This document shows, one piece after another, positions 4,118 through 27,428 of a DNA stretch of 29,415 nucleotides. The translations under genes were made by a program, and so were the position numbers. Position 1 is the stretch's first letter, and each line of letters opens with the position of its first letter. Below the pieces are notes generated by a model that ran no database searches, was not told the DNA's origin, and worked only from the letters and a program-made list of their open reading frames with translations. The stretch lies in the IMG/VR virus record IMGVR_UViG_3300009158_000154, positions 1 through 29,415 of that record; one strand, 5' to 3'. The stretch comes from a virus.

Positions 4118-5715
4118 TGAATCGTTATAAAGGTTCCATTCTGTCTGCAACGGCTGCGCCTACCAGCGGTTCCGCTGCGGCTGGGATATGGACGCAAACA
4201 GAAGCAATGCAAGCTAGGCAAGCGGGGACATGGCCTGGATACAATACACCTGATATTGAATATTTGGTGGTTGCAGGTGGCGGCGGCGGCGGTGTTTTTG
4301 GTGGCGGTGGAGGTGCAGGCGGGTATTTAACCTCAACAGGCTATTCTGTAACCCCAGGTTCCGCAATCACCATTACAGTTGGCGCTGCTGGCGCTGGTGG
4401 TATTTACAACTCTTCTACATCTGCAACTGCTGGTGGTAATAGTGTTATTGCTGGTGGAACTACCATAACAGCTTCTGGCGGCGGTATTGGAGGAAATGGA
4501 CGTTTTTCCCCAGGCGCTGGTGGTAATGGTGGTTCTGGCGGTGGCGGCGCAACAACTGGCGGTGTGGTGAATGCTGCTGGTTCAGCAAATGGGACTCCAT
4601 CAAGCCAAGGCAATGCTGGCGGCAGGGGCGGTAATGACTCTAGTGGAGGGCAAGTTAATTACCCAAGCGGTGGCGGTGGTGGTGCTGGGGGTGTTGGTCA
4701 ATATGGTTTACAAAATCAAAAGCCTGGATTTGGTGGTGTTGGTGTACTAACTAACTTTATCACCCCATTTGCTGGAACGGGAAACATTACTTCTGGTTCT
4801 ACAACATTAACAGTTACTGCCACAAGCGCAGGGGCTTGTGTACCAGGAACACAGGTTACTGGAACTGGCATTAGAACCGCACAATCTATAGCAATTACAA
4901 GCATAACAGCGGCGGCTAACGTAGTTACGGTTAACTATGCAACTCAAGGTTCAGCCCCATTCGCTGCGGGTATGGCAATTACGATTGCTGGGGTTACGGG
5001 TTCTGTAGTTTCAACTACAGGGTCTATAACAGCAAATACTCTAACCGTTTCATCTGGTACAAGTATTGCAATTGGGCAGCTTGTAACAGGAACAGGCGTA
5101 ACTGCTGGAACTTATATTACTGGTGGCAGTGCATTAAGTTGGACAGTAAACATATCTCAAACAGTAGCGTCTACCACACTTACTTTTAGCGCAAGCTGGA
5201 ACGGAACGTATCAAGTCGCGTCATCTAGCACTACTGCCACAACATTTTCCGCAAACACTACTGGAACTGCTACCGTCACTGGCGCGACTATTTCTAGCCT
5301 TGCGACATACATAGTTTCTGGTAGTGCAGGGTCTTTTGTTATGAGCGCCCCAGCAACGGCCACTACCACTGGCATTGCACTTACAAGTTCGGGCAACTAT
5401 TATGCTGGCGGTGGCGGTGGAGATGTGTTTACATCTGGGAATCCCATAGGTCAAGGCGGTGCAGGCGGCGGTGGTAATGGTGGTGTATCAGGCTCTGTTT
5501 CTGGAACTTCAGCCGCAGATGAAACAGGCGGTGGTGGTGGTGGTAGCGGACTTGCTGCGGGCGTTACTGGAGGCGCAGGCGGTAAAGGAATTGTTATTCT
5601 TAGGTATTCCATAGGATTTCCAGTAGCGGCATCTACTACTGGAAGTCCAACGGTCACAACAGACGCAACTTACCGGTACTACAAATTTACAGGCAACGGA
5701 ACCATTACGTTTTAA
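4117..5715 (+). CDS. Glycine-rich receptor-binding/adhesin protein with nested inserted domains
   Basis: A 532-residue protein. Residues about 45-215 and 427-532 form a glycine-rich domain: VVAGGGGGG, GGGGGAGGY, ITITVGAAGAGG and other poly-Gly stretches, ending with GKGIVILRY and a YRYYKFTGNGTITF strand. This is the pattern of phage tail-tip adhesins built from packed polyglycine helices, where hypervariable loops contact the receptor. The short N-terminus (SATAAPTSGSAAAGIWT) is typical of the family. Between the two glycine-rich parts, residues about 222-425 are Gly-poor, Thr/Ser-rich beta modules that appear split and nested within one another (see separate entry). The protein is probably the receptor-recognising element of the tail (family knowledge plus inference). 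Carbohydrate binding is possible for the inserted modules but not shown. Confidence 0.75.
   Translation: MNRYKGSILSATAAPTSGSAAAGIWTQTEAMQARQAGTWPGYNTPDIEYLVVAGGGGGGVFGGGGGAGGYLTSTGYSVTPGSAITITVGAAGAGGIYNSSTSATAGGNSVIAGGTTITASGGGIGGNGRFSPGAGGNGGSGGGGATTGGVVNAAGSANGTPSSQGNAGGRGGNDSSGGQVNYPSGGGGGAGGVGQYGLQNQKPGFGGVGVLTNFITPFAGTGNITSGSTTLTVTATSAGACVPGTQVTGTGIRTAQSIAITSITAAANVVTVNYATQGSAPFAAGMAITIAGVTGSVVSTTGSITANTLTVSSGTSIAIGQLVTGTGVTAGTYITGGSALSWTVNISQTVASTTLTFSASWNGTYQVASSSTTATTFSANTTGTATVTGATISSLATYIVSGSAGSFVMSAPATATTTGIALTSSGNYYAGGGGGDVFTSGNPIGQGGAGGGGNGGVSGSVSGTSAADETGGGGGGSGLAAGVTGGAGGKGIVILRYSIGFPVAASTTGSPTVTTDATYRYYKFTGNGTITF
4780..5391 (+). other. Nested ('Russian doll') beta-module insertions inside the glycine-rich adhesin
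   Basis: Residues 222-425 read as three modules placed one inside the other. Module A starts at 4780 (SGSTTLTV then VTGTGI, ending 4872) and resumes at 5299 (LATYIVSGSAGSF). Module B starts near 4873 (NVVTVNY, then MAITIAGVTG, ending 5004) and resumes at 5197 (WNGTYQVASSSTT). Module C is uninterrupted from 5005 to 5196 (TLTVSSGTSIAIGQLVTGTG, then GTYITGG and STTLTF). C resembles A put back together. The whole block interrupts the glycine-rich domain, which resumes with YYAGGGGG. The assignment rests on the split halves completing familiar phage fibre modules. Confidence 0.6.
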
Positions 5716-7480: not shown

Positions 7481-8590
7481 ATGACACTAGCAATAAACGG
7501 CACAACGGGTATTACCCTTGCAGGGCAGTTTGACACCGCCTCAACCTTTGGCTTCAAAAATCGCATCATCAACGGCGCGATGGTGATTGACCAGCGCAAT
7601 GCTGGGACTGAGGTGAATCCTGCCGTCAACAGTACGTATTATCTTGATAGATGGACAGTTGGTACTAGTGTTGTGTCCAAATTTAAGATTGGGCAAAATG
7701 CTGGGGCAGTAACGCCTCCAACAGGGTACATAAACTATCTTGGTTGTACATCACTATCTGCGTATACAGTTGGTGCAGCAGAAACTTTTAATGTACAACA
7801 AAAGATTGAAGGGTTAAACGTAGCCGACTTAGCGTGGGGCACTGCTTCTGCTGCAACTGTCACCTTGTCATTTTGGGTGTACTCAAGTCTGACGGGAACA
7901 TTTGGCGGTTCACTAAGAAATAGTGCTGCAAACAGGTCTTACCCGTTTACATACACCATATCTTCCGCAAACACTTGGACCCAAGCATCAGTAACTATTG
8001 CTGGCGATACAACAGGAACATGGCTTACAACTAGTGGAATTGGAATTTCAGTAATTTTTTCTATTGGTACTGGCTCCACTCTTTCTGGTACTGCTGGTGC
8101 TTGGGCAGCAACCAACTACAACTCAGCCACGGGCGCTGTATCAGTAGTCGGAACCAGCGGAGCCACGTTCTATATCACAGGCGTGCAGCTAGAAAAAGGC
8201 AGCACAGCTACATCGTTTGATTACCGCCCGTATGGGACTGAGTTATTTTTATGCCAGCGGTACTATTACAGAACTACTCCAGGTGCAGTCAGTAGGTCAT
8301 TTGGAAGTGCGTTTACACAAGCGACAACTGAAGCCATCGTACTAACGCCATACCCAGTAACTTTAAGAACATCTCCAACTGCGCTAGAACAATCTGGCAC
8401 TGCTGGTGACTATTCTTATGGAGAATCTGGTTCTAATTTTACCTGTTCTGCTGTTCCTGTTTTTACCGCTGCATCAGTTGATAGCGGAGCGTCAAAATTG
8501 ACTGTTGCATCTGGCTTGACAGTTGGTAGGGGTGGATTTGGCAGGGCTGTTAATGCAACCACATTTCTTGCATGGAGTGCTGAACTATGA
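7481..8590 (+). CDS. Tail-fibre protein with carbohydrate-binding-like domain
   Basis: A 369-residue protein. Residues 1-25 (MTLAINGTTGITLAGQFDTA) form a short fibre-attachment module. FGFKNRIINGAMVIDQRNAG follows: this 'NRIINGAM.IDQRN' block is a hallmark of many phage fibre proteins. The domain at about 45-250 (TYYLDRWTV, FNVQQKIEGLN, VTLSFWVYSS, ATFYITGVQLEKGS) has the layout of a jelly-roll carbohydrate-binding module. It ends with FDYRPYGTELFLCQRYYYRT, another common fibre motif, before a final beta domain (about 270-369). It probably contacts host-surface glycans (family knowledge; no substrate shown). The stop overlaps the next small gene (ATGA). Confidence 0.8.
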   Translation: MTLAINGTTGITLAGQFDTASTFGFKNRIINGAMVIDQRNAGTEVNPAVNSTYYLDRWTVGTSVVSKFKIGQNAGAVTPPTGYINYLGCTSLSAYTVGAAETFNVQQKIEGLNVADLAWGTASAATVTLSFWVYSSLTGTFGGSLRNSAANRSYPFTYTISSANTWTQASVTIAGDTTGTWLTTSGIGISVIFSIGTGSTLSGTAGAWAATNYNSATGAVSVVGTSGATFYITGVQLEKGSTATSFDYRPYGTELFLCQRYYYRTTPGAVSRSFGSAFTQATTEAIVLTPYPVTLRTSPTALEQSGTAGDYSYGESGSNFTCSAVPVFTAASVDSGASKLTVASGLTVGRGGFGRAVNATTFLAWSAEL

Positions 8591-9303: not shown

Positions 9304-9363
9304 ATGGTCACATACGAATTTACCCAGCAAGCACCGCCCCCAGACGTTGTAGCCAGTGATTGA
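9304..9363 (+). CDS. 19-codon ORF, possible 5' part of a broken or recoded small gene
   Basis: ATG at 9304 follows a good AGGA site (9293-9296, seven bases away), but the frame stops at TGA 9361-9363 after MVTYEFTQQAPPPDVVASD. The open frame that continues to 9517 is shifted by +1. This could be a leader peptide coupled to the GTG at 9356, the 5' part of a gene broken by an indel, or a site of +1 recoding. The +1 frame has TAG at 9347-9349, so any frame change would have to lie between about 9350 and 9360. There is no clear slippery sequence. Confidence 0.3.
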   Translation: MVTYEFTQQAPPPDVVASD

Positions 9364-9517
9364 CCAACTTGCCTCCGCTGATAACCCGTGGCCCAATACC
9401 GATACCAAAACGGTGTTGGTTTGCCGCATCCCTAAGAAGGATGACAAGCCAAGCGCAAATGAGTTTGTGGACAAAGACGGACGTATTTGCCGGTGGGCGG
9501 TAGTGAACAAGAAATAG
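9356..9517 (+). CDS. Small hypothetical protein (53 residues, GTG start or 3' part of a frameshifted gene)
   Basis: An open frame from GTG 9356 to TAG 9515-9517 encodes a protein reading MIDQLASADNPWPNTDTKTV in its first part and ending ICRWAVVNKK. It looks like a genuine protein, with a mixed hydrophobic and charged pattern and a CRIPKKDD segment, but I do not recognise the family. The GTG lies five bases before the TGA of the 19-codon ORF (GTGATTGA), an arrangement that allows termination-reinitiation. No good ribosome site of its own is visible. The alternative is that it is the body of one gene starting at 9304 whose frame is broken. Confidence 0.45.
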   Translation: MIDQLASADNPWPNTDTKTVLVCRIPKKDDKPSANEFVDKDGRICRWAVVNKK

Positions 9518-9528
9518 GAGTTGTCCTG

Positions 9529-10019
9529 ATGATTGACCCATTCACAGCCTTCGCAATGGCGCAAGGCGCGGTAGCTGGTATAAAAAAGCGATTGCCTTGG
9601 GGAAGGATATACACGGTCTTTACAAGGAGTTCTCCAGTTTCTATGCGGCGGCTGACACCGTTCACTTAGCAAGCACCAAGGCGCGAATTGCTTCAATTGG
9701 AAAGACAGATGCACAGATAAGCTCTCAAGCACTCCAAATAGCGATGGCCTCCAAGGCGCTGAGAGAGTATGAGAAGGAACTGAAGGACATACTCTTTTAC
9801 AGCGGGAACGCACAGGTCTGGGAAGAGATGATGGCAGAGCGGACACGGATGATTAAGGAGCGCAATACATTAGAAAGAGAAGACGCGGAACGCAAGCAAA
9901 AGGACAAGGAAATGAAAGTGACGATTATTATGAACACGTTGTGGATTGCCGGTGCTTCCGCTATCATCGTTCCATTGGTCAGTGTGGCATTTCACGTTAT
10001 AACGAATAGGGGCTTCTGA
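9529..10019 (+). CDS. Coiled-coil, C-terminally membrane-anchored protein of the lysis cassette, apparently made by -1 frameshift
   Basis: Two overlapping frames appear to encode one 163-residue protein. Zero frame begins at ATG 9529 (MIDPFTAFAMAQGAVAGIKK) and would stop at 9669 as a 46-residue product. A -1 shift at the A AAA AAG heptamer (9582-9588) continues AIALGKDIHGLYKEFSSFYA through to TGA 10017-10019. The -1 frame has no usable start of its own: TTG 9597 lacks a ribosome site. The long product has a charged, predicted coiled-coil middle (about 45-128) and one C-terminal membrane span (about 131-156, NTLWIAGASAIIVPLVSVAF). It directly precedes the holin (TGATG overlap), so a role in lysis or envelope attachment is likely but unproven. 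A homopolymer sequencing error is the main alternative. Confidence 0.65.
9582..9606 (+). promoter_or_regulatory. Putative -1 ribosomal frameshift site (A AAA AAG plus short hairpin)
   Basis: The heptamer AAAAAAG at 9582-9588 lies in the correct zero-frame phase (ATA AAA AAG from ATG 9529). It is the same slippery sequence as in Escherichia coli dnaX. Six bases downstream, CCTT (9595-9598), a GGGG loop and AAGG (9603-9606) can form a small stem. No strong Shine-Dalgarno-like stimulator lies at the usual distance upstream; the nearest is AAGG at 9563-9566. Confidence 0.55.
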
Positions 10020-10531
10020 TGATTCCAATACTCGGTGCATTGTTAGGCACACTGGCAGAAAACGGGTTGACGCTGCTGTCCTCGGCTATTCAAGCCAAAG
10101 GCAAAGAAGTCGTAGAGAACACTTTGGGCGTAAAGATTCCCGACAACCCTACCCCCGAGGACGTTGCCAAGCTGCGGCAGCTTCAGTATGACCATGAAGA
10201 ACGTCTGCTGGAGTTGGGCATTGAGAAAGCCAAGATGGAGTTGGCCGAGCTGGAGTTGCTTGCCAAGGCCGCACAGTCTGATGCGGAGAACGTCACAGAC
10301 CGTTGGAAAGCGGACATGTCATCGGACTCGTGGCTGTCCAAGAATATCCGGCCCATCAGCTTGATTGCCATTTTTGTAGGCTACTTCTTGTTCACCATGA
10401 TGTCAGCCTTTGGATACAGCCCGCAAGAGAGTTTCGTAAGCCTCTTGGGGACATGGGGGCAGATAGTGTTCTTGGCCTATTTTGGCGGCAGGACTGTGGA
10501 GAAGCTGGCAGAGATGAGGAGCAATAAATGA
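10019..10531 (+). CDS. Holin (3-TM GTA-type holin family)
   Basis: A 170-residue protein that probably forms the inner-membrane lesion releasing the endolysin. It starts with a weakly hydrophobic helix (MIPILGALLGTLAENGLTLL), then an amphipathic, charged coiled-coil middle (about 55-95), then RWKADMSSDSWLSKNIRP, a block typical of the GTA_holin_3TM family. Two clear membrane spans follow (about 110-131, ISLIAIFVGYFLFTMMSAF; and about 140-157, LGTWGQIVFLAYFGG). The length and order match the family. It overlaps the preceding gene by one base and the next by four (ATGA), consistent with a co-translated lysis cassette. Confidence is good on family, moderate on holin function. Confidence 0.8.
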   Translation: MIPILGALLGTLAENGLTLLSSAIQAKGKEVVENTLGVKIPDNPTPEDVAKLRQLQYDHEERLLELGIEKAKMELAELELLAKAAQSDAENVTDRWKADMSSDSWLSKNIRPISLIAIFVGYFLFTMMSAFGYSPQESFVSLLGTWGQIVFLAYFGGRTVEKLAEMRSNK

Positions 10532-10773
10532 AAGCCAAGTTGACTTTCCTTGTGACTCTCATGGTCAGCTTTACCCTTTGCGTAGTAATCATCGGAATGG
10601 TCGCCGTGCTTATGGCGGGTCTGTTTGACGAAAAAGTGGACAACGCTGAAATTTTCAAACTTATCAGCCCAGCATTTCAAACCATTGTCGGTGGATTTAT
10701 TGGTCTGCTGGCTGGTGTGAAGTTGTCCCACGGTGAAACAGATGAAGAACCCAAACAATCGGAGGTGGTATGA
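10528..10773 (+). CDS. Small two-span membrane protein, possible second holin or antiholin
   Basis: An 81-residue protein with two hydrophobic segments: residues about 6-31 (TFLVTLMVSFTLCVVIIGMV) and about 47-66 (SPAFQTIVGGFIGLLAGVKL). They are separated by a short charged loop (FDEKVDNAEIF) and followed by a hydrophilic, acidic tail. The size, two spans and position between a holin and an endolysin suggest a holin partner or antiholin (inference; no sequence family recognised). It starts on the ATGA overlap with the holin gene, and its stop overlaps the endolysin start. Confidence 0.7.
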   Translation: MKAKLTFLVTLMVSFTLCVVIIGMVAVLMAGLFDEKVDNAEIFKLISPAFQTIVGGFIGLLAGVKLSHGETDEEPKQSEVV

Positions 10774-11108
10774 GCCTTAGTCAAGAACAAGCAGCGTTTC
10801 TGCTGGACTTCTGCAAGCTGGTGCAGTACGCCACCGACCAAGGCTTTATGGTTACTGGCGGGGAACTTGCCCGTACCCCTGAGCAGCAGGCCATCTACTT
10901 CAAGACGGGGCGGTCTAAGACCATGAACTCCATCCACCTGAAGCGGTGCGCTGCCGACCTCAACTTCTTCCGTGATGGCAAAATCATTTGGGATAAGGGT
11001 ATCTTGGCCCCACTGGGTGCGTACTGGGAATCCCTACACCCCAAGAACCGCTGGGGTGGAAATTTCCGTTCGCTGGTAGACTGCCCGCACTTTGAGCGGA
11101 ACGTGTAA
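10770..11108 (+). CDS. Endolysin, M15-type L,D- or D,D-peptidase
   Basis: A 112-residue zinc peptidase that should cleave peptide bonds in peptidoglycan stem peptides. The zinc site is visible: H56 and D63 in SIHLKRCAAD, and H107 in DCPHFE, the H-x6-D ... H pattern of VanY/endolysin M15 enzymes. The N-terminal helix (QAAFLLDFCKLVQYA) and TGGELARTPEQQ segment are also typical, as is the WGGNF loop before the last histidine. There is no signal peptide, so it needs the upstream holin for release. A strong GGAGGT (10761-10766) lies close to the ATG within the previous gene. The length equals a bare catalytic domain with no cell-wall-binding module, as usual for phages of Gram-negative hosts. Confidence 0.88.
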   Translation: MSLSQEQAAFLLDFCKLVQYATDQGFMVTGGELARTPEQQAIYFKTGRSKTMNSIHLKRCAADLNFFRDGKIIWDKGILAPLGAYWESLHPKNRWGGNFRSLVDCPHFERNV

Positions 11109-16557: not shown

Positions 16558-18809
16558 GCTATTCTCGCCGTCAACTTTATGCAATGGGTGAGCCCCTTGG
16601 CGACTCTGCAACACGCCGTAAAGCAGGTGGTGGCCTAGTTTTAGGTGATGGTGGAGGTGGGTCTTCTCCCGCTAGCACCACTGTAAGTGCTACTGACCTT
16701 CCAGATTGGGCCAAGGGCTACGCCAAGGACACGTTGGCCAATGCAGCTAACCTTACGGACATCAATAAGAATCCGTACAAGGCTTACGACCAACCTCGGA
16801 TTGCTGGGTTTTCTCCCATGCAGGAGCAGGCACAAACGGCAGCTTCAAACATGTCGGCTGGGCCAGCAGCTTTTGGCCAAGGTGTCAACGCATACATGTC
16901 CCCGTACATGCAGAATGTGGTGGACGTACAGAAGCAAGAGGCTGCTCGGCAATCGGGGATTATGGGTACGCAGCAGCAAGCGCAAGCTGCTCAGTCCGGT
17001 GCTTTTGGTGGTGGTCGAGATGCCATCATGCGGGCAGAACGTGAACGTAACCTTGGTCAGCAGATGAACCAAATTCAAGCGCAGGGCTCCCAAGCTGCGT
17101 ACGACCAAGCTGCAAATCAGTTCCGTCAAGGCATTACCCAAGACACGGCTATCAATCAGTTGCAAAACCAATACGGCGGTCAGCAGCAAGCGCAAGCACA
17201 ACGAGGTCTGGACCTTGGGTATCAAGACTTCTTGAACCAACAGAACTACCCCTACAAGCAGATTGGCTTTATGTCCGATTTGGTTCGAGGCTTGCCGTTG
17301 GGTCAGCAATCTACAGCATCTATGTATCAGGCTCCCCCGTCAACATTGCAGACCGTTGGCGCTTTGGGTATGGGCGCGTATGGGGCTAGTCAGCTTATGG
17401 GTAGGGCTGAAGGTGGTCAAGTGAGCAGCTACGCTGGCGGTGGTGAAGTCAATGCAATGAACGACCAGAACCAGATGGCCGACGCAGTGGACAAGCTCAC
17501 CGACGAGCAGCTACAGCAAATCATTCAAAACCCATCCAGCGCAGCCGAACTCCAAGCAGCGCAACTTGAACTAGCTACCCGTGCCTCTGAACGAGGTGGA
17601 CTTGCCGGTGCTTACAACATGGCCCAAGGCGGCGTGGTTGCTTTTGAAGACGGTGGGTTTGTACAAACCCCTAGTGGGTTAAACGTACTAGAAAGTGAAG
17701 TAGGTGGATACGGCGGTAACGCGGATGAAATTGAGTCAGAAGGAAACCAAAACGTATACGATGAAATCTTACAAGAGTTTTTGGGGCAAATGCGCGCAGG
17801 TAAAAGTCGCAAAGGTATAACGCTGCGCAATGACACCCAAATGGAAGCCGACACAATAGCTAGGCTTGGGCGGTTGCAAAATACACTTGGTGGGGACAAA
17901 ACCTACACCGATATCCAAAAGCAAATTTCCGATATGCGCGGAGAGAACGAAGGCTCACTGCGTGAAGGTAAAGGGTTAGCTGCGCTCCAAGCAGCAGGTG
18001 CAATGCTCCAAGGTAATGACGCCATAAGGGGTATTGGCGCTGCGGGTTCTGCGTTTGCTTCTTCCTACGCCCCTGCACTGGCTGCTAAACGTAAGGCAGA
18101 CCAATCCTTCACTGAGATGAACATTAACTTGGCCAAGGCTCAACGTGCAGAAAAAGCGGGCCTACTTAAAGAAGCTGATACGTACGAGCAAGCTGCCGAG
18201 AAGAACAAGATTGATGCGTACAAAGCGGAAACCGCAGCACGTAATATGGGCCTTGGGTCTTTGGCTCAAGCAGCTAGAGCGGCTAAACCTCAGTCGTTTA
18301 GACCTGTTGCGGCGGTTAAAGAATCCGATGCGGTTCAAGCACAAAAAGCTTTTGCAGCAGAAATAGCAAACCCGGAAGACCCAGAAGCAAAACGTATTGC
18401 CGCAGCTTGGAGAGAAAGTTTGGGCCTTACACGTCCAAGCCCAATCTCCGCCGGTATATCCGCAACAGCGATGGGTGAAAGAACTGCTGCTCAGATAGCC
18501 GCCGATGAAGAGAAGCAACGGAAAGAGATTGAGGAAAAGCAAAATGCGGCGCGGTTGCAAGTAGAGAAAGACGTTGCTGCCGAGTACACGCTATCAAAAC
18601 TTGGTATGGAACAAGAGTACCAAGAGGCTCTGACAAATGCGGCTAAAAAAGTTAAGGGGGCAAAAACTCCAGACCAAGTTCGCCGAGAAATTATTGCTAG
18701 GGAAGTAGAACGCCGTGCGGGTGCGCGTCCATCTGCTAGTGGTGGAACCGGTGGTGCTAAGGGTGGAACTAGACTAAAATTTGACGCGAACGGAAACCAA
18801 ATTCAGTGA
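16554..18809 (+). CDS. Large Gln/Ala-rich virion protein, probable internal/ejection protein
   Basis: A 751-residue protein. After a Gly-rich N-terminus comes a conserved region (about 43-270) with LPDWAKGYAKDTLANAANLT, PRIAGFSPMQEQAQTAASNM and YMSPYMQNVVDVQKQEAARQ, then long Gln/Ala-rich helices (GTQQQAQAAQSGAFGGGRD). This block is familiar from unnamed structural proteins of phages with short tails. Residues about 282-370 carry GG motifs (AEGGQVSSYAGGGEV; YNMAQGGVVAFEDGG) like those of the protein at 13895-16132. The C-terminal half is mostly charged helix, probably coiled coil (about 475-715). A role as an ejected internal protein is inferred from size, helix content and position. An AAGGAAG site lies just before the ATG, which overlaps the GNAT stop. 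Confidence 0.65.
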   Translation: MSYSRRQLYAMGEPLGDSATRRKAGGGLVLGDGGGGSSPASTTVSATDLPDWAKGYAKDTLANAANLTDINKNPYKAYDQPRIAGFSPMQEQAQTAASNMSAGPAAFGQGVNAYMSPYMQNVVDVQKQEAARQSGIMGTQQQAQAAQSGAFGGGRDAIMRAERERNLGQQMNQIQAQGSQAAYDQAANQFRQGITQDTAINQLQNQYGGQQQAQAQRGLDLGYQDFLNQQNYPYKQIGFMSDLVRGLPLGQQSTASMYQAPPSTLQTVGALGMGAYGASQLMGRAEGGQVSSYAGGGEVNAMNDQNQMADAVDKLTDEQLQQIIQNPSSAAELQAAQLELATRASERGGLAGAYNMAQGGVVAFEDGGFVQTPSGLNVLESEVGGYGGNADEIESEGNQNVYDEILQEFLGQMRAGKSRKGITLRNDTQMEADTIARLGRLQNTLGGDKTYTDIQKQISDMRGENEGSLREGKGLAALQAAGAMLQGNDAIRGIGAAGSAFASSYAPALAAKRKADQSFTEMNINLAKAQRAEKAGLLKEADTYEQAAEKNKIDAYKAETAARNMGLGSLAQAARAAKPQSFRPVAAVKESDAVQAQKAFAAEIANPEDPEAKRIAAAWRESLGLTRPSPISAGISATAMGERTAAQIAADEEKQRKEIEEKQNAARLQVEKDVAAEYTLSKLGMEQEYQEALTNAAKKVKGAKTPDQVRREIIAREVERRAGARPSASGGTGGAKGGTRLKFDANGNQIQ

Positions 18810-18816
18810 GGGCGTT

Positions 18817-21800
18817 ATGACGATTGAAGCCGAACTCGCTGATGGGCGCGTCTTAGAGTTTCCTGATGGAACAAGCCCTACAGTAATCCAAGGTGTAGTC
18901 AAAAGACTCATAAGCGGTGGAGCACCCACACCTGCTGCGGCCCCCGCTGCCACCTCAACCGCCGCAGACAACCTAGCCCGTGCCCAAGCTGCGCAAAACG
19001 AAGCATCAAAAGGGCCAGAGCAAATCTCTATCCCTCAAGCGGAGTTGGCTGCTGCGGAAAAAAATGCTGCTGCGCTCAGGAAAGAGCTAGCACGTAAGGG
19101 TGTAGATGCTGGTGCGCCTCCTGCTATTGGAAGTACCAAGGCTGGAGAATTCCTGCTTGCCCAAGGAGCCCAAGCGCAAGGCCAACAACCCGCCCCCGCC
19201 GCTGCGGTAGTACCCCCTGCACCACCTCCTGCTCTTGCGCCAGCCCAAGTTGCTCGTACTGTTGACGACCGGGTTCGGCGTACGCCGTCCTTGTATGACG
19301 TGCAATCCACAACATCTGAACCTGCTGGTACGGTAGCTGGAACTCAAACAGCCCTCAACATGGCTGGGGTTAGCCCACAGTACGTGTCCTCACTAGAGGC
19401 GCAGTTCAATCAGCTAGACCCCGCCAAAAGAATTGCTGCATTGCAACAAGCATTGGTAGAAAACCCAAGAAATACGGTTAAAGGCCGTGCAGTGCGCGCA
19501 GTGGCTGCGCGAAACAAAGCTTGGGGCAAAGTGACCGACCCGGCAACATCCTACATTTCTGGCGCTGCTCGAAAGCTAAGCTCTCGGGTAGAAGATGTCA
19601 CCCAAGAGTTGATTGGCCAAGGAGTACGTGCTGACATTGCTCCGGGCATTGCTGCGAACAGGATTGCGTTTGGGGCTGCTACGCAGCCTATGGCTGCTGT
19701 TGACCGCGATGTAGTTGGTGAGCAAGCTGCCGCCGCTGCGGAGCAACAAGCCAAAGAACTCAAAGATGCAGGGTTGGCTAAACGCGTTGAGGCTGGAGTT
19801 ATGTCGGAAGGCACAAAAAGCGTTGCGGGTGTGGGACAGTTTTTGGCGGACATTACCGGGGATAAAGAGTTTTCTAGAGAGCTAGCAAACACCCAACGGA
19901 TAGAGGGCGCTAGGACTGCTGCAATCCCCCAAGGAGAAGGCGTTTTTGATAGGTCGCTTCAAGGGGCAGCTACAAGCCTTGCGGCACAAGCACCTTTCTT
20001 GGTGTTAAGCGCGCTGACTGGTTCTTCCGCACCCGTGTTGGCGCAAGTGGGGCTTACTTCGTTTGGGAAATCCTACGGAGAAGGTAGGGCTGCGGGCCTT
20101 GACATCGCAAAATCTGCCACACGGGCAACAGCAATGACTGCGGCGGAAATAATTTTTGAACGCCTTGGTATGACCAAAGCCCTTGCGGGTTTAAAAGCAT
20201 TTGTAGCTAAAAACGGCACAGCCAGCATACCTAAGTACTTAGCAACGTCTGTAGCAACAGAGCTACCCCCTGAAATAGCCACCGCCATAACGCAGTACGG
20301 TATTGACGTGCTGCCTAGTGTGGGTTTGAACAAAAAACCTAGCCTTATTGACCTGTACCAACAAGTAGAAGAAACGCTACGGCAAACAGTGTTGCAAGCC
20401 GGAGCTACTGCTGGGATTACCGTTGCTGGGGTTAAAGGTGTTCAAGGCGCTAAGGCCACCCCACAAGCAATAGCTGAGGCAAGAGAACGACTCCGCAAAA
20501 CCTCCAACCAAATAGTCGGCATAGAGAAAACCAACGAGCTACTCGGCCCTCGTGAGGGTGCGTACGAGCGTCCGGGGGAAATAAGCCGAGCAAAGCTTAT
20601 GGCTGAAGCAAAACGGGTTCCTTTTGCCTCTACTTCAGGTGCCTTGAACGCACCCCCCGCAGAAAAAGCCGCCGCTGAACCCAAACTAGGAGACCTAGAA
20701 AACGTGGGCATGCGGGAGGAAGAAGAACCCGGACTAGGTAGTCTAGAAAACGTACGTGCGGAGGATGGCCCGCCGTTGTTTGCTCCCACAGCCGAAGACA
20801 CCGAAGCAAAAGTAAACGCCATTGCTGAACGACTGCGTTCACGGGGCATCCCCAGAGAGAATGCGTTGCGCATAGCGCAGAAGCAAATTGCAGAAGAAGC
20901 AGCGGCTGCGGCAGGACCAGCGGCTGTCCAACCACCAAACGAAATCCAATTAGAAAAAGGTCTTGCAGCACCCCAAGATATGTCTAAGCTATCTGCATGG
21001 CCTGACGCTTTGCTGGCCGAGACGCTCAAGATGCAAGAGGCACAAGAGGCACCTAACAAGCCGTTAGTCGAGGCGCTTCAAGCGGAACTACAACGCCGAG
21101 CGCAAACCCAAGGAGCCCAAAATGTTGCAGGAACTGAGCCCACTCCAAGTGGAGAGAGCGTTAGCGTGGCTGGCCAGCCCGGAGCAGAGACCCCCGGAGG
21201 ACTTGAAACACCTGCACGAGATGGAGTGGTTCCTACTGAGCCGGATGCTGGACTCCCTGCTACAGGAGAAGTATCTGAGCCCGCTGCATTAGAAGAACGC
21301 CCCAAGCTGAACATGTTCGGCTTGCCTATCGGGGTGAATTTTGCCGCCAAACCAGAAAAAACTACTGCCTCCGAATTAAAGGCGGGCGATTGGATTATTT
21401 CTGATGGGAAAGCAATGCAAGTGCGTTCCGTTTCCCCTAATGAAGATGGCACATTGCATATAGTTTTAGACCATTTACTTGGTACAACTCCTGTCGATGC
21501 AAAACCAACTGCATCTGTCCAAAGAAAAATCATCGAGCAAAAAACCGAAGAAGGAACCACTGATGGCACTGAAACCGTTGAAGCCAAGCAAGCAGAAGCG
21601 CAAGAACAAGAAGCACCCGCCGCCCCAGTAAAAGTCAGAAACACTGAACCCGTAGTAAATGAAAATGGCGCGTTTATCCCTGCAAAGGAAAAAGGAGGGG
21701 AACTAGAAACCACCGCGCATTTCAAGGTACTGGACGAAGACAACGATATATCAGACAACCTTGTCGGCGCTACCATGATAACGGGCATGGGAGCTACCAA

Positions 21801-24800
21801 AGAAGGGCAGGGCGAAGGGTCTAAGCTACTCAAGGCAATTACTGCTTGGGCTGATGCTAACGGTAAAAAATTGGTACTTGTACCTGCGGCGACTCCTAAA
21901 GGCGAACGCGGGCTTTCTCAAGAACAGCTAAAAGCATGGTACGTCCGAAACGGGTTTGAAGACCGCATCGACTACATGGTGCGGGAACCCGGTGGTAAAA
22001 AAGCTGAAGCCCCCGCAGCACCGAAGCCTCCCAAAGCAGCCAAGCCCGGCAAAGAAGTACACACGACTCCGCAGAACGCTGAGGGCAAGTGGAGCCACGC
22101 AATAAACGGTGAGGTGGTTAAAACCTACGACACCAAGACCCAAGCAATTGCTGCGATGCTGCTGAACAAGGCCCAAAAAACGGGCAATGAAGAACTGATT
22201 GCAAAGAGGCAAAAAATATTTGATGGGGCGATGAACCCTCAGCAACGAGGCCGACCACCCAAGCTCGTTGATACCCTTACCGAAGATACTGAAGAGGCTG
22301 AAACAGCGAGAGCAAAAGCCGCTGTGGAAAAAGCCAATGCCGACGCAAAGGCCAAAGCTGAAGCCGCTGACAAAGCCGCTGAGAAAAAACCCACCGCTGA
22401 GGAAAAATTTGCGGCAAGAGCCAAGGCCAACGTAGAAGCTAATCAAAAAGCTATAGCAGAGAAAGCCAAGGCCGATGCCGAAGCAAAAGCTAAAGCCGAC
22501 GCAAGGGCTGAAAGAGAAAAAGACGAGGAGCAAGAGCAAGCTATTCGGGAAAAAGCTGAAGCTGAGGTAGATGCTGGGCCTATTGGTGAGGCACTGCGTC
22601 GCATTGAAGACGGTGACCGGGTTGAGACCAAGGCACAACTACGCCCCTTCATGTTTAAGCTGGAGAAAAACGGCGTACTCGACGACATCAGTGACATCCA
22701 AGAAGCTTTGAGCGACCGTGAGCAGACTGCTGATGACGTGCTTGACATCATGCGTGACCAGCTTGAAACCGCTAGAGACGATGCGATAGACGAGCGCGTC
22801 GATGAGCTTACGGAAGAAGCGGAACAAGAAGCGGAACAAGCTACCGAAGAAAAGCAAAAAGACCCGTGGGAAGGGGTTAAACGCACCACAAGGGGCGACG
22901 TAGAAACCGTGCCTACTTCTTCGCTGGATGATGTTGGGCAGAGAAACAAAGTAGACACCAGCACGCCTGAATACGCAGCATTAAAAGCCAGCATTGAAAA
23001 AACAGGAATAGTTGACCCAATTACGCTTACCACTAATTCGTTGGGTAAGCCAGAAGTATTTGAAGGTAACCACAGGTTACAAGCCGCTAGGGAGCTTGGG
23101 CTTAAAGAAGTGCCCGTAGTCCTGCATTCAAAAATTAACCCGTCTGAATCGCGCCCAGTTTTAGGGACTAAACCAAGCGAAATCTTGGCCAAAACCAAAG
23201 CCCCTGCCGCTAAAGCAACCGAACCCAAACCCAACCTAACAGCCGAAGAAAAAGAACGGCTGGAGGAACTTGATGACATATACCGCAACGCTACCAACAA
23301 CCCAAACACTGAGGGTGGTAAAGCTGCGAGGAAGACGCTTGAGCGTGTAACCAAAGACACCGACGAGCCCAAGGTTGTGCGTGAGCGGGCAAAGGCAATG
23401 TTGGCGGGGGAGTACTCCGCGCCTGCTGACGACGAGTTCTTCATTCAAGCTGCGCAGGGTAAGAAAGACCTAGCGTTTAGCAAGTTCACTACTTCCAGTC
23501 AGACCCTGTCGCACATCATAAAGACTGGCACAGACTTCCAGAAGAGACTGGCCCGCCGACTGCGTAGCACTGTGCGCAACGTGAAGATGGTGGTGGTTGA
23601 GAAGGGGCAAGAATTACCAGCAAGCGTAGCTGCGGTTAAAGACAAGTGGAACAGAGCACTTGCCCTGTACAACACAAACGAAAAGGTTGTCTACACCAAG
23701 GGGGAATCCTATGGAAGAAACAACGGCCTGAACGCTGTTGTGCAGCTACACGAGCTATTCCACGGGGCTACGTCCCAGAAGATACGCACCGCTTTGGCCT
23801 ACATGAAGATGGGCCGTCATGTGGACTCCCAGATGGTCAAGGCTGTTGATGGGCTGGAAAAAATAATGAACGCCGCCGCTGTTGAACTAAACAAACAAAT
23901 TGAGGCAGGCACTGTAGACCCAGACGTACACAGCCTAGCTGTCTATGGTGAAGCGTTCACCAACCTCCATGAGTTTGTGTCTTACGGAAACACCGATGCT
24001 AAGCTGCAAGAGTTTCTTAAAGGTGTGAAAGGATTTGAGAAAGACGAAGGTCTGTTCTCGCCGTTTGTTGACGCCCTGCGCCGCTTGATTGGTGTAGCGA
24101 AAGAAGACGCTAATGCACTGTCTGACCTTGTCCAGCACACCGACCAACTCATAAGTTCACGTAGACCGGGCGGCTGGGGCTTCCCAGAAGTAGGGGTGCT
24201 TGCATCAGCTATACCAAGAACCCAAGAGGAAATGGATGCGGACTCTGATGCGGCTTGGAGCAAAGTAACTCGGTCCCAGCTTGGGCAACAGCGGGCTGCT
24301 GCACTTAGCAGCGTTATGGCCTTGCGTGACCCCCGTGTTATTTGGGCACGGCTTGGGGGTGTGTGGGACAAGCTAGACGGCCCAACACGTAAAGCCATTG
24401 CGCTAACCTTCGACCGCAACGGTATTGCCAACACTATAGGTAAGCATATCCCTGCACTGGTAGACATAGCCGACCGGTTACAAAAGATGGACGGTATGGC
24501 CGCTAGCCTGCGTGCCCAAGCAACGAAGCAGGCTGGAATGGTTGTGAACTTTGCCCGAAAAGACCGCAAGGCTATGAAGGTGCTCGACCGACTGATACCG
24601 GCTTCAACCCTTGTTAGGTACGACCCTTCAAACCCCCCAGCAAATGGGGTTCGGGACACAAGAACAGATACAGCTTATGCGTCTTTAGGTGCAGCAGGCC
24701 AACGTGTGTATCGTGAAATTCGGGACTACTTCGCAGACATGCATCGCGTGGCGCGGGACATCATGGAGGCCAATGTTGATGGGCTAGACCTGCCTTCGGA

Positions 24801-27162
24801 TACCAAGCAAAAGCTGATGGGTAGCATTCGGCTAGCGTTTGAAGAAGGGAAAATTGAACCGTACTTCCCACTTATGCGTTTTGGCGATTTTGTCTTTCGC
24901 ATCAAAGAGCGGGGCTCCGCAGAGTATGAATCTTTCAGGTTTGAAACCAAAGCAGAGCGTGACTTTGCAGCTAAAGCGTACGCCAAAGAACAAGGCGTCA
25001 CTCTGGACAACTTGATTGAAGACAACGAAGTAGACCTGTCCGAAGACGATGGCGGGAAAGAAGTGCGCGGTATCGTCGAGGGTAATAGCAAGCTGCTAAA
25101 GGAACTGTACGGGGCCATAGACTCTATGGACTTGTCTGACCCCAACGCCAAGGCGAAGCTGAAGGACAACATGTATCAGGTGTATTTGGACTTGATGCCT
25201 GAAGCAAGTGTGCGCAAACAGTTCATGCACCGTGAAGAAGTAACTGGCTTTGGTACCGACACGCTGCGAATGATTAACGCGCAGGGTATCAAGATTGCTA
25301 GCGCCCTGTCCAAGCTTCAGTACGGTAACGAAATACGCAACTTGTCTGAGCAAGCGCATCGGCAGCTTAAAGGGAAAGAACAGTACAAAGCCTTTGTTGG
25401 TGCGATGGATGCGATTGCTGATGAGGCACTGAGCCCTAAACCGCTTGGCCCTGTTGCTGAATTTTTTGACCCAGTAGCGCAGCAATGGACAAAGTTTACT
25501 TTCTTCCATAACCTAACAAGCCTATCGTCTGCCCTCATGCAGCCAGCGGACATCATGCTGACCGGTGCACCTGTACTAGTCGGCAATCACGGCCCTAAAG
25601 CTATGGTTGAGTTGACCAAAATGGCCAACGTGGTTAAACAGTTTGGTGTGTGGGAAACCCTGCCTGATGGGACTAAACGGTTCCGTGCACCAAGCATTGC
25701 GTATGCAACAGGACTGCCTCAAGTAGAGCTTGATGCGATTGCCGACATGGTCAACGAGTACGGTCTTAGCGCCGACACGCTTGCAAATGAAATTTTTGAC
25801 GCAGCTACAAAACCTGTAAACAAGGCCGACCCAAAAGCAATCGAGCTTGCAAAAGATGCGGGCAGACTGCTTGTGCTTGGTGGGTTGATGCACCACACAG
25901 AACGCCTTTCGCGTGAAGTTTTGGGCGCGGCTTCATTCCGCTTGTACTACGCAGAGATGGAGAAAGCTTCTCCCGGCAACCCAAGCAACTATGCCAACGC
26001 TGTACGGGCTGCTGTAGCCGAAGTCAATGAGGCGCTGGGTGACTATAGCCCCGGTAACCGCCCGCAAATCATGCGTGGCCCTATTGGAAAGCTAGCAAGC
26101 ACTTACAAGTTTTTCCCGCTCACACGTATCAAGCTGCTTGGGGGTAACTTCTTCAGGATGATTCCGTTCCTCAACAAGGAGGGAAAACTTGCCGCAGCTA
26201 CTAAGTTCTTTGGCATCTTGGGTACACATAGCGTACTCACTGGGGTTGTTGGCCTTCCCATGTACGGACTCATACAAGCTCTATGGGGCCAGTGGCAAAA
26301 GGATGAAGACGCACCACAAACCATGAAGGACCTAGACCACGACACATGGTGGCGTACTGAGTACCTGCGCAAAGAACTAGACGATAGCAAGTTGACTAAG
26401 TTCGTTAAGGACGTGGCCAAAAGCGGTTTGGCTAACTACGCTACAGGCATGGCTATCTCTGAACGGCTTGGTTTGAACGATATGGTGTTCCGTACCCCAG
26501 ACCCAGCCAAGAACTTGAACGAGGCTTTTGCAAACTACGCCGCTGCGTTTTTTGGTGCGCAGTTGACTCCAATCAGAGCAACACAAGACTCGTGGGATTA
26601 CTACTCTCAAGGTGAGTATCAAAAAGCTTTTGAAGCCCTCCCATTTATGCCTAAGTCCATAGGCGCATTGTCAGCAACGGAACGCATTTCCCGCGAAGGC
26701 GTAGAGACTAAACAAGGCGTACCAATTTTAGACAAGGGCGAGGCAACCACAAAAGAACTTATCGGGCAAGCTCTTGGCTTCCAGTCTGCGCGTGTTGCAG
26801 AGGCACGAAGGATTGCACATGCTACGGACATAGTAGAGCGGGGCATTAGCAGTGAGAAGCAAGCCATAGTAGGTAAAGCAGCCACCATGTTCTTGAAGGC
26901 TATCAACCCGAACAGAGACCCAGAAGACCGGCAACGCTTCTTGAACATGTACCTAGAGTCCATCCAAAAGATACCTAAGTTCAATGTGAAGCACCCCGAA
27001 CATGGCATTGACGGTAAAGAGATTGACGCCAAGATTGACGCCGAGTTAGAGAAGATTGCCGCTTCTAAGATGTTCGGTGGGGTAAAAATCAACGACAACA
27101 ATATCCGGTTGTTTATCCAAGCGGCTTTGGCATCTAGGGAAGCATTGAACAACCCCAAATAA
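18817..27162 (+). CDS. Giant polyvalent virion protein (2781 residues)
   Basis: Start is ATG 18817, with GAGG at 18808-18811, preferred over the in-frame TTG 18781 inside the previous gene. By eye the order is: 1-34, ELADGRVLEFPDGTSP motif; 36-160, Ala/Pro-rich linker; about 383-545, hydrophobic helices; about 848-905, small beta region (LKAGDWIISDGKAMQVRS); about 981-1060, GNAT-like (GQGEGSKLLKAI at 998-1009); 1157-1255, Ala/Glu/Lys coiled coil; about 1363-1438, ParB/sulfiredoxin-like with G-N-H-R at 1417-1420; about 1558-1780, metallopeptidase-like with H1645-E-L-F-H1649 and E1719; about 1782-2560, conserved helical region ending in a polyvalent-associated (possibly LPD38-type) block with hydrophobic segment 2462-2491; then a C-terminal helical tail. 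Such proteins are thought to enter the host with phage DNA and counter defences. Domain edges are approximate. Confidence 0.8.
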   Translation: MTIEAELADGRVLEFPDGTSPTVIQGVVKRLISGGAPTPAAAPAATSTAADNLARAQAAQNEASKGPEQISIPQAELAAAEKNAAALRKELARKGVDAGAPPAIGSTKAGEFLLAQGAQAQGQQPAPAAAVVPPAPPPALAPAQVARTVDDRVRRTPSLYDVQSTTSEPAGTVAGTQTALNMAGVSPQYVSSLEAQFNQLDPAKRIAALQQALVENPRNTVKGRAVRAVAARNKAWGKVTDPATSYISGAARKLSSRVEDVTQELIGQGVRADIAPGIAANRIAFGAATQPMAAVDRDVVGEQAAAAAEQQAKELKDAGLAKRVEAGVMSEGTKSVAGVGQFLADITGDKEFSRELANTQRIEGARTAAIPQGEGVFDRSLQGAATSLAAQAPFLVLSALTGSSAPVLAQVGLTSFGKSYGEGRAAGLDIAKSATRATAMTAAEIIFERLGMTKALAGLKAFVAKNGTASIPKYLATSVATELPPEIATAITQYGIDVLPSVGLNKKPSLIDLYQQVEETLRQTVLQAGATAGITVAGVKGVQGAKATPQAIAEARERLRKTSNQIVGIEKTNELLGPREGAYERPGEISRAKLMAEAKRVPFASTSGALNAPPAEKAAAEPKLGDLENVGMREEEEPGLGSLENVRAEDGPPLFAPTAEDTEAKVNAIAERLRSRGIPRENALRIAQKQIAEEAAAAAGPAAVQPPNEIQLEKGLAAPQDMSKLSAWPDALLAETLKMQEAQEAPNKPLVEALQAELQRRAQTQGAQNVAGTEPTPSGESVSVAGQPGAETPGGLETPARDGVVPTEPDAGLPATGEVSEPAALEERPKLNMFGLPIGVNFAAKPEKTTASELKAGDWIISDGKAMQVRSVSPNEDGTLHIVLDHLLGTTPVDAKPTASVQRKIIEQKTEEGTTDGTETVEAKQAEAQEQEAPAAPVKVRNTEPVVNENGAFIPAKEKGGELETTAHFKVLDEDNDISDNLVGATMITGMGATKEGQGEGSKLLKAITAWADANGKKLVLVPAATPKGERGLSQEQLKAWYVRNGFEDRIDYMVREPGGKKAEAPAAPKPPKAAKPGKEVHTTPQNAEGKWSHAINGEVVKTYDTKTQAIAAMLLNKAQKTGNEELIAKRQKIFDGAMNPQQRGRPPKLVDTLTEDTEEAETARAKAAVEKANADAKAKAEAADKAAEKKPTAEEKFAARAKANVEANQKAIAEKAKADAEAKAKADARAEREKDEEQEQAIREKAEAEVDAGPIGEALRRIEDGDRVETKAQLRPFMFKLEKNGVLDDISDIQEALSDREQTADDVLDIMRDQLETARDDAIDERVDELTEEAEQEAEQATEEKQKDPWEGVKRTTRGDVETVPTSSLDDVGQRNKVDTSTPEYAALKASIEKTGIVDPITLTTNSLGKPEVFEGNHRLQAARELGLKEVPVVLHSKINPSESRPVLGTKPSEILAKTKAPAAKATEPKPNLTAEEKERLEELDDIYRNATNNPNTEGGKAARKTLERVTKDTDEPKVVRERAKAMLAGEYSAPADDEFFIQAAQGKKDLAFSKFTTSSQTLSHIIKTGTDFQKRLARRLRSTVRNVKMVVVEKGQELPASVAAVKDKWNRALALYNTNEKVVYTKGESYGRNNGLNAVVQLHELFHGATSQKIRTALAYMKMGRHVDSQMVKAVDGLEKIMNAAAVELNKQIEAGTVDPDVHSLAVYGEAFTNLHEFVSYGNTDAKLQEFLKGVKGFEKDEGLFSPFVDALRRLIGVAKEDANALSDLVQHTDQLISSRRPGGWGFPEVGVLASAIPRTQEEMDADSDAAWSKVTRSQLGQQRAAALSSVMALRDPRVIWARLGGVWDKLDGPTRKAIALTFDRNGIANTIGKHIPALVDIADRLQKMDGMAASLRAQATKQAGMVVNFARKDRKAMKVLDRLIPASTLVRYDPSNPPANGVRDTRTDTAYASLGAAGQRVYREIRDYFADMHRVARDIMEANVDGLDLPSDTKQKLMGSIRLAFEEGKIEPYFPLMRFGDFVFRIKERGSAEYESFRFETKAERDFAAKAYAKEQGVTLDNLIEDNEVDLSEDDGGKEVRGIVEGNSKLLKELYGAIDSMDLSDPNAKAKLKDNMYQVYLDLMPEASVRKQFMHREEVTGFGTDTLRMINAQGIKIASALSKLQYGNEIRNLSEQAHRQLKGKEQYKAFVGAMDAIADEALSPKPLGPVAEFFDPVAQQWTKFTFFHNLTSLSSALMQPADIMLTGAPVLVGNHGPKAMVELTKMANVVKQFGVWETLPDGTKRFRAPSIAYATGLPQVELDAIADMVNEYGLSADTLANEIFDAATKPVNKADPKAIELAKDAGRLLVLGGLMHHTERLSREVLGAASFRLYYAEMEKASPGNPSNYANAVRAAVAEVNEALGDYSPGNRPQIMRGPIGKLASTYKFFPLTRIKLLGGNFFRMIPFLNKEGKLAAATKFFGILGTHSVLTGVVGLPMYGLIQALWGQWQKDEDAPQTMKDLDHDTWWRTEYLRKELDDSKLTKFVKDVAKSGLANYATGMAISERLGLNDMVFRTPDPAKNLNEAFANYAAAFFGAQLTPIRATQDSWDYYSQGEYQKAFEALPFMPKSIGALSATERISREGVETKQGVPILDKGEATTKELIGQALGFQSARVAEARRIAHATDIVERGISSEKQAIVGKAATMFLKAINPNRDPEDRQRFLNMYLESIQKIPKFNVKHPEHGIDGKEIDAKIDAELEKIAASKMFGGVKINDNNIRLFIQAALASREALNNPK

Positions 27163-27233: not shown

Positions 27234-27428
27234 TCAAGTTCTCCAAACCCGCAAGCCCTTCACCCCATCCATGATGACCACCTTGGTGATGGTGGTTATC
27301 TTTAGCCGTTTTGTAACTACAGCCAACGTAGCCCGCGCCGCCTTGTGGTCGATGCAGGGGATGAAGAATGAATAGCCCTTGCGGAACTTGGACCAGTCAA
27401 TCCTGTACGCTACTGTCTCGATTTTCAT
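27234..27428 (-). CDS. Small basic conserved phage protein (64 residues)
   Basis: The product begins MKIETVAYRIDWSKFRKGYS and contains FFIPCIDHKAARATL, a basic helix (VTKRLKITTI) and a KGLRVWRT end. The pattern 'W..F..G.SFF.PC.D' followed by 'G.RVWR' is one I have seen in small phage proteins of unknown function. The basic helix suggests nucleic-acid contact (inference). It begins 32 bases inside the 3' end of the leftward ATPase gene, implying co-transcription and translational coupling, and ends before the terminator hairpin. The ribosome site (TGGGCACAG) is weak. The rightward ORF in this interval has no phage-like features and is a shadow. Confidence 0.65.
   Translation of the reverse strand: MKIETVAYRIDWSKFRKGYSFFIPCIDHKAARATLAVVTKRLKITTITKVVIMDGVKGLRVWRT

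Follow-up and report, generated by a model that had tools for sequence, protein, structure and literature searches.

A conserved candidate -1 frameshift site in the first gene of a phage lysis cassette

Among tailed phages, most known cases of conserved frameshifting lie in tail-assembly genes, with a few in capsid genes. In lambda gpG/gpGT and the other tail-assembly chaperones, the slip is kept as the sequence diverges. In E. coli dnaX, the heptamer A AAA AAG is accompanied by a stem and an upstream Shine-Dalgarno (SD)-like element, and slippage yields the shorter product. The OrfA-OrfB arrangement of IS911 and the IS3 family also uses A AAA AAG together with a downstream structure, and there the shift leads to a longer fusion product of two domains. 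Recoding and termination effects have likewise been tied to lysis-gene expression in MS2. However, MS2 is an RNA phage in which ribosomes that have shifted or terminated start anew on the lysis gene, and no fusion product arises.

Here we analysed a 29.4-kb virus record from an uncultured tailed phage (the window, i.e. the whole stretch of 29,415 nucleotides), in which one gene is split between two reading frames. The comparison of related sequences indicated that this gene, the first of the phage lysis cassette, very probably carries a conserved -1 programmed ribosomal frameshift of the dnaX/IS911 type. It shares with dnaX the in-phase heptamer and, in most members, the stem spacing of 5 nt. 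However, a slip in the phage gene gives the longer product, and no SD-like element is conserved. The absence of such an element also sets it apart from IS911 and its relatives, as does the fact that one ancestral phage protein is broken near its N-terminus instead of two domains being fused. As in the tail-assembly chaperones the -1 shift is a conserved phage feature, but the gene, the place of the shift (codon 20 here) and the neighbours are all different. The phrog_32327 library entry, to which the joined protein belongs by profile match, is silent on frameshifting. In the open-access literature we found no earlier report of frameshifting in this lysis-region gene family, only tail-gene cases and general reviews. 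This agrees with the sequence-only reading of the window, which knew of no such case, although absence from this literature does not prove novelty.

Gene order, reading frames and the joined protein

The split gene (9529-10019, plus strand) has tail-fibre genes on one side, including a phrog_4492 match at 7481-8590, and the lysis set on the other (Table 1). Relatives that are cultured or complete have the gene next to holin and peptidase or lysozyme genes, with the label hypothetical; one culturable relative, Limnohabitans phage DC31, has it unbroken. A scan of the genome contigs found no relative. In the window, the ATG of the holin gene overlaps the stop of the -1 frame (TGATG), and the holin gene has its own SD-like AGGGG. 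The overlap between the -1 stop and the holin start was present in 74 of 88 split genes versus 13 of 75 unbroken genes; therefore, it is possible that translation of the holin is coupled to that of the split gene. Upstream, a small ORF of 53 aa without family match occupies positions 9356-9517 of the window. In many relatives its stop abuts or overlaps the start of the split gene, an arrangement that suggests coupled translation of these two.

Table 1. Positions of the features of the split gene and its surroundings in the window.
Feature	Position	Strand	Basis
AGGAG, SD-like, ahead of ATG 9529	9516..9520	+	sequence
Zero-frame 5' part, 20 codons, MIDPFTAFAMAQGAVAGIKK, common to both products	9529..9588	+	start conserved in family
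Slippery heptamer A AAA AAG	9582..9588	+	sequence; invariant in 97 distinct split relatives
-1 frame ORF AIALGKDIHG...VITNRGF, 143 codons + TGA stop	9588..10019	+	homologous to unbroken relatives across junction
Zero-frame tail, 26 codons + TAG	9589..9669	+	not conserved as protein
Spacer between heptamer and family stem, 5 nt	9589..9593	+	RNAalifold, helix test
Family stem, 5' arm	9594..9608	+	15 pairs in most members; window keeps 12/15, many G-U
Alternative hairpin of window lineage, 9595-9599 with 9623-9627	9595..9627	+	not better than shuffles
Family stem, 3' arm, one bulged base	9637..9652	+	helix conservation, RNAalifold
C-terminal hydrophobic segment, putative membrane anchor	9924..10001	+	hydropathy; helix in AlphaFold2 model of L029
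Holin-like gene	10019..10531	+	phrog_3427 holin, E 8e-16
Small hydrophobic protein, 81 aa	10528..10773	+	holin-like weakly: phrog_785, E 0.044
Endolysin, M15 D-Ala-D-Ala carboxypeptidase family	10770..11108	+	PF13539 E 9e-7; phrog_465 E 1e-15

At the junction the zero frame reads GGT ATA AAA AAG CGA. Read without a shift from ATG 9529, the gene encodes MIDPFTAFAMAQGAVAGIKK followed by RLPWGRIYTVFTRSSPVSMRRLTPFT, 46 aa in total, and stops at TAG 9667-9669. A slip of one base back at A AAA AAG gives 163 aa with the stop TGA 10017-10019. Our analysis confirmed in this respect the sequence-only reading, which had proposed that the heptamer at 9582-9588 joins the two frames in slippery phase after 20 codons, the slip product having a predicted C-terminal membrane anchor and the unslipped product only 46 residues. 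AAAAAAG occurred three times on the plus strand of the window, and only at 9582-9588 was it in slippery phase inside a gene. In the relatives surveyed, the -1 frame 5' of the heptamer has as a rule only 17-22 open codons without a start codon, and the long protein therefore needs a shift.

The joined protein matches phrog_32327, a family with no assigned function (E 3e-4 with the -1 part of the window), as do 19 of 19 unbroken relatives (best E 5.6e-14). A single clear hydrophobic segment lies at the C-terminus of the joined protein of the window, and the AlphaFold2 model of the relative L029 was all-helical, with long helices and a mean pLDDT of 74. Profile searches gave no match of the joined protein to a holin, antiholin or spanin family. 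It has no family match to tail assembly chaperones either, and its neighbours are the holin and endolysin genes, not a tape-measure gene. Sequence and fold searches of the PDB returned nothing significant, and the viral fold library matched only uncharacterised phage proteins. We infer a lysis-related function of the joined protein from gene position only.

Conservation of the site and of the downstream stem

A protein search of IMG/VR, in which the -1 part only was used as query, retrieved 80 relatives with 87-98% identity, nearly all of them broken at the same codon (ATAAAAAAGC). We then compared a pattern scan for the broken form with one for the unbroken form, both patterns leaving every synonymous position free. 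The first yielded at least 100 distinct matches, among which L125 is not a relative and L168 ends at a contig edge, and every listed match reads ATAAAAAAGC. The second yielded 78 distinct matches, nearly all homologs, in which ATT/ATC/ATA and AAA/AAG were used freely. Queries made of C-terminal parts from other clades, which favour neither the broken nor the unbroken form, found about 99 broken genes, all in the clade of the window, and no frame break elsewhere in the family. When the -1 part of the window was searched by tblastn against the phage collection there was no match, and relatives served as queries instead. Since the retrieval patterns were degenerate or C-terminal only, the heptamer was not selected for by the search.

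Among the pooled matches listed, 97 distinct clade sequences have ATAAAAAAG at the junction, i.e. the codons ATA AAA AAG in 97 of 97 split relatives, and two further clade members (L029 and L258) have ATCAAAAAG and are in a single frame there. Apparent unbroken matches with six A after CAT, TAT, AAT or GAT were these split sequences read in the -1 frame and were disregarded. The -1 frame was open over its full length in nearly all split relatives. The alignment of homologs asked for by the sequence-only reading thus bore out an in-phase heptamer and a frame split conserved across the clade of the window. Unbroken homologs without the heptamer, which it had named as evidence against a shift, do exist as sister clades, but inside the clade of the window the break and the heptamer are essentially fixed.

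The clade is divergent at silent positions. Over 82 distinct genes, a median of 48% of the four-fold sites differed per pair, and nucleotide identity fell as low as 67%. In the DNA tree, ATA, AAA and AAG took 1, 0 and 0 third-position steps, respectively, compared with 5-19 steps at 12 other Lys columns and 1-22 at Ile columns, and by these counts the site is conserved beyond amino-acid need. Upstream of it third positions vary freely (7-31 steps), with no conserved SD-like stimulator. Past the site, synonymous change was reduced in codons 0-44 (obs/exp 0.44-0.86, lowest in codons 12-20). The same region in three unbroken control clades showed no reduction (0.92, 0.93 and 1.01).

Among 20,217 helices of 12 pairs tested in the gene, the best conserved one begins 9 nt past the heptamer, and RNAalifold extends it to a stem after a 5-nt spacer. 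Standard pairs made up 94% of the 15-pair stem, versus 36-57% when it was slid and 45-70% in the unbroken relatives. Codons 2 and 20 pair through their third positions (C-G or U-A). These two positions changed jointly in five of six changes, always in a compensatory manner, and their covariation was the highest among 780 comparable column pairs. Short-block exchange may account for part of this covariation, since codon 17 changes in parallel with these two codons. In the shuffle test, the stem was far better than shuffles in L050 (z -2.99) and not better in the window (z +0.73). The stem core was lost in the window, L002, L086, L121 and L185. A downstream structure at 5-9 nt is thus predicted for the clade, not for the window itself.

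The sequence-only reading had pointed to another stem, CCTT-GGGG-AAGG (9595-9606), six bases past the heptamer. This hairpin (-1.8 kcal/mol) is present but belongs only to the small lineage of the window, and its region folded no better than shuffles (z +0.27, +0.95 and +0.73), so that it did not hold up as a stimulator. None of the alternative structures tested for the window lineage beat shuffles, and pseudoknot partners sought for the stem loop were not convincing. Mean folding z against synonymous-codon shuffles separated split (-0.99) from unbroken genes (-0.64) weakly; the informative tests of the stem were helix conservation and covariation.

Origin of the break and fate of the short product

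In the protein tree, which has few columns and many open forks, all broken genes formed one group (SH-aLRT 96) with L029 and L258 nested within. The sister clades, about 40-65% identical, read ..IKKA[VI]ALGKD.. in a single frame with free codon choice; these one-frame genes include L217, L198, L204 and L196. Judged from this tree and these alignments, the break is derived, with one gain and one loss, because sister clades encode the same joined protein unbroken with freely varying codons. Nowhere is the family more conserved than across the junction (IKKA.ALGKD), and the sisters have these residues in one frame; therefore selection keeps the joined 163-residue protein. Apparently, an unbroken ancestral gene lost one base, once, and the break would then have been held by selection. 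Moreover, the rarity of repair speaks for a break that is beneficial and not merely tolerated, because one inserted base restores the frame, yet this is seen at most once in about 99 sequences.

L029 (about 4925-5000) and L258 (same contigs as L468, L469) are still frame-broken, at codons 4-6, where the conserved ATG frame (MIDPF) meets the main frame at CCT TTT CGT. The UUU_CGU core of this sequence is also the core of the influenza PA-X +1 site (PMC3498833). The -1 site may have been swapped in these two for a +1 site, CCU UUU CGU at codons 4-6, and a putative +1 shift there would restore the conserved MIDPF-[TV]AFALAQ exactly. Translation could instead begin at a TTG that overlaps the upstream stop (TTGA), which would give the single frame MILFVAFALAQ.

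In this uncultured freshwater phage clade, a probable lysis-cassette frameshift can thus be traced from an unbroken ancestor through one gain and a covarying stimulator to one loss. Such a history lets one ask directly why a phage keeps a break that one base could repair, and whether the timing of lysis is set by slippage. In almost all genomes of the clade, standard gene calling misses the joined protein or truncates it.

The zero-frame tail varies freely, and we rejected it as a conserved peptide on this ground. In 23 of 80 relatives the zero frame ends directly past the site, after IKKQ, IKKR or IKKP, giving a short product of 21 residues; this early stop took three changes on the tree. In most of the 23 sequences with the early TAG in the spacer (among them L010, L013, L018, L019, L023, L024 and L027), the stem is a little weaker. 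The later zero-frame TAG (9667-9669 in the window) was found in 80 of 80 relatives, even where an earlier stop is present. It overlaps a -1 codon CTA, TTA, GTA or ATA, whose first base changed seven times and whose third base never did, a pattern suggestive of selection on zero-frame termination. The sequence-only reading had also spoken of two products in a set ratio and of a control of lysis timing. Both are conjectural, because the tail is unconserved and ends after 21 residues in those 23 relatives.

Proposed mechanism, alternatives and other observations

We propose that ribosomes begin at ATG 9529 and translate 20 codons, and that a fraction of them would slip back one base at A AAA AAG, aided in most relatives by the 15-pair bulged stem 5 nt downstream. 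The slipped ribosomes would make the full 163-residue helical protein with its C-terminal membrane anchor, and the others a short peptide (21 or 46 residues) that shares its first 20 residues with the long one. With a stimulator, A_AAA_AAG ranks among the most efficient -1 motifs of E. coli (PMC4066793; PMC5009743), whereas V_VVA_AAG motifs without stimulator gave about 0.3% in this species (PMC4066793). Given these figures, most likely only part of the ribosomes would slip, and the full-length protein would be scarce. We infer that the slippage is translational, and its efficiency likewise. Given the shift, it is somewhat more likely than not that it serves to keep the amount of full-length protein low compared with holin and endolysin. 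Several observations stand against the frameshift reading: the window lineage (window, L002, L086, L121 and L185) is mostly without the conserved stem, such motifs yield little in E. coli without a stimulator, no SD-like stimulator is conserved upstream, the covariation may in part reflect block exchange, and L029 and L258 manage without the site.

Corrective frameshifting, in which a fixed one-base deletion is repaired by efficient slippage and the short product is waste without regulation, would also involve a shift at this site and is a real class (Atkins et al. 2016; PMC5009743). The unconserved zero-frame tail, the thrice-changed stop leaving 21 residues in 23 of 80, the sister clades lacking the break and the two members lacking the site are all consistent with it. 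However, under such a repair a frame-restoring insertion in the A run should be frequent, whereas the site was lost in one lineage only among about 99 sequences, and the heptamer, the stem and the zero-frame stop have all been maintained. We therefore regard a purely corrective role as possible but rather unlikely. At the other end, the break might be a selected lysis regulator, in which slippage sets the dose of the membrane protein and maybe, by way of the overlapping stop and start, holin translation, the short peptide opposes or tunes it, and L029 and L258 have swapped to a +1 shift. This full scheme is speculative, and we would give it only a small chance of being correct.

Programmed ribosomal frameshifting has also to be weighed against slippage in transcription, by which the A6 run would give a mixed mRNA pool that ribosomes read normally. 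To slip, bacterial RNA polymerase requires a longer run, of about 8-9. The A run is indeed present at the junction, but it never exceeds six A followed by G, it has precisely the phase of tandem tRNA slippage, and a stem 5 nt downstream has been retained, which makes the transcriptional route improbable. Very improbable, too, is an internal start, e.g. TTG 9597, that would make the long frame a separate gene and the short ORF an independent leader peptide. TTG is found at that codon in the window and four relatives, but 75 of 80 relatives have CTT there, and in the unbroken family conservation is highest in the joined N-terminus, IKKA.ALGKD included. An artefact of sequencing or assembly, or a gene that is a dead pseudogene, has nothing but the homopolymer at the junction in its favour. 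The conserved pattern already refutes both, and their chance is negligible: the break is common to 97 distinct metagenome sequences, almost all of them have the -1 frame open to its end, and this frame evolves as a protein (87-98% identity) with synonymous sites diverging.

Two other genes of the window were observed. A single ORF of 2793 codons (18781-27162) has a ParB-like segment (residues ~1346-1456) and a DarB-like C-terminal part, and its product is probably an internal or ejected virion protein. A primase/helicase-like gene lies on the minus strand (27397-29382), opposite to the structural genes.
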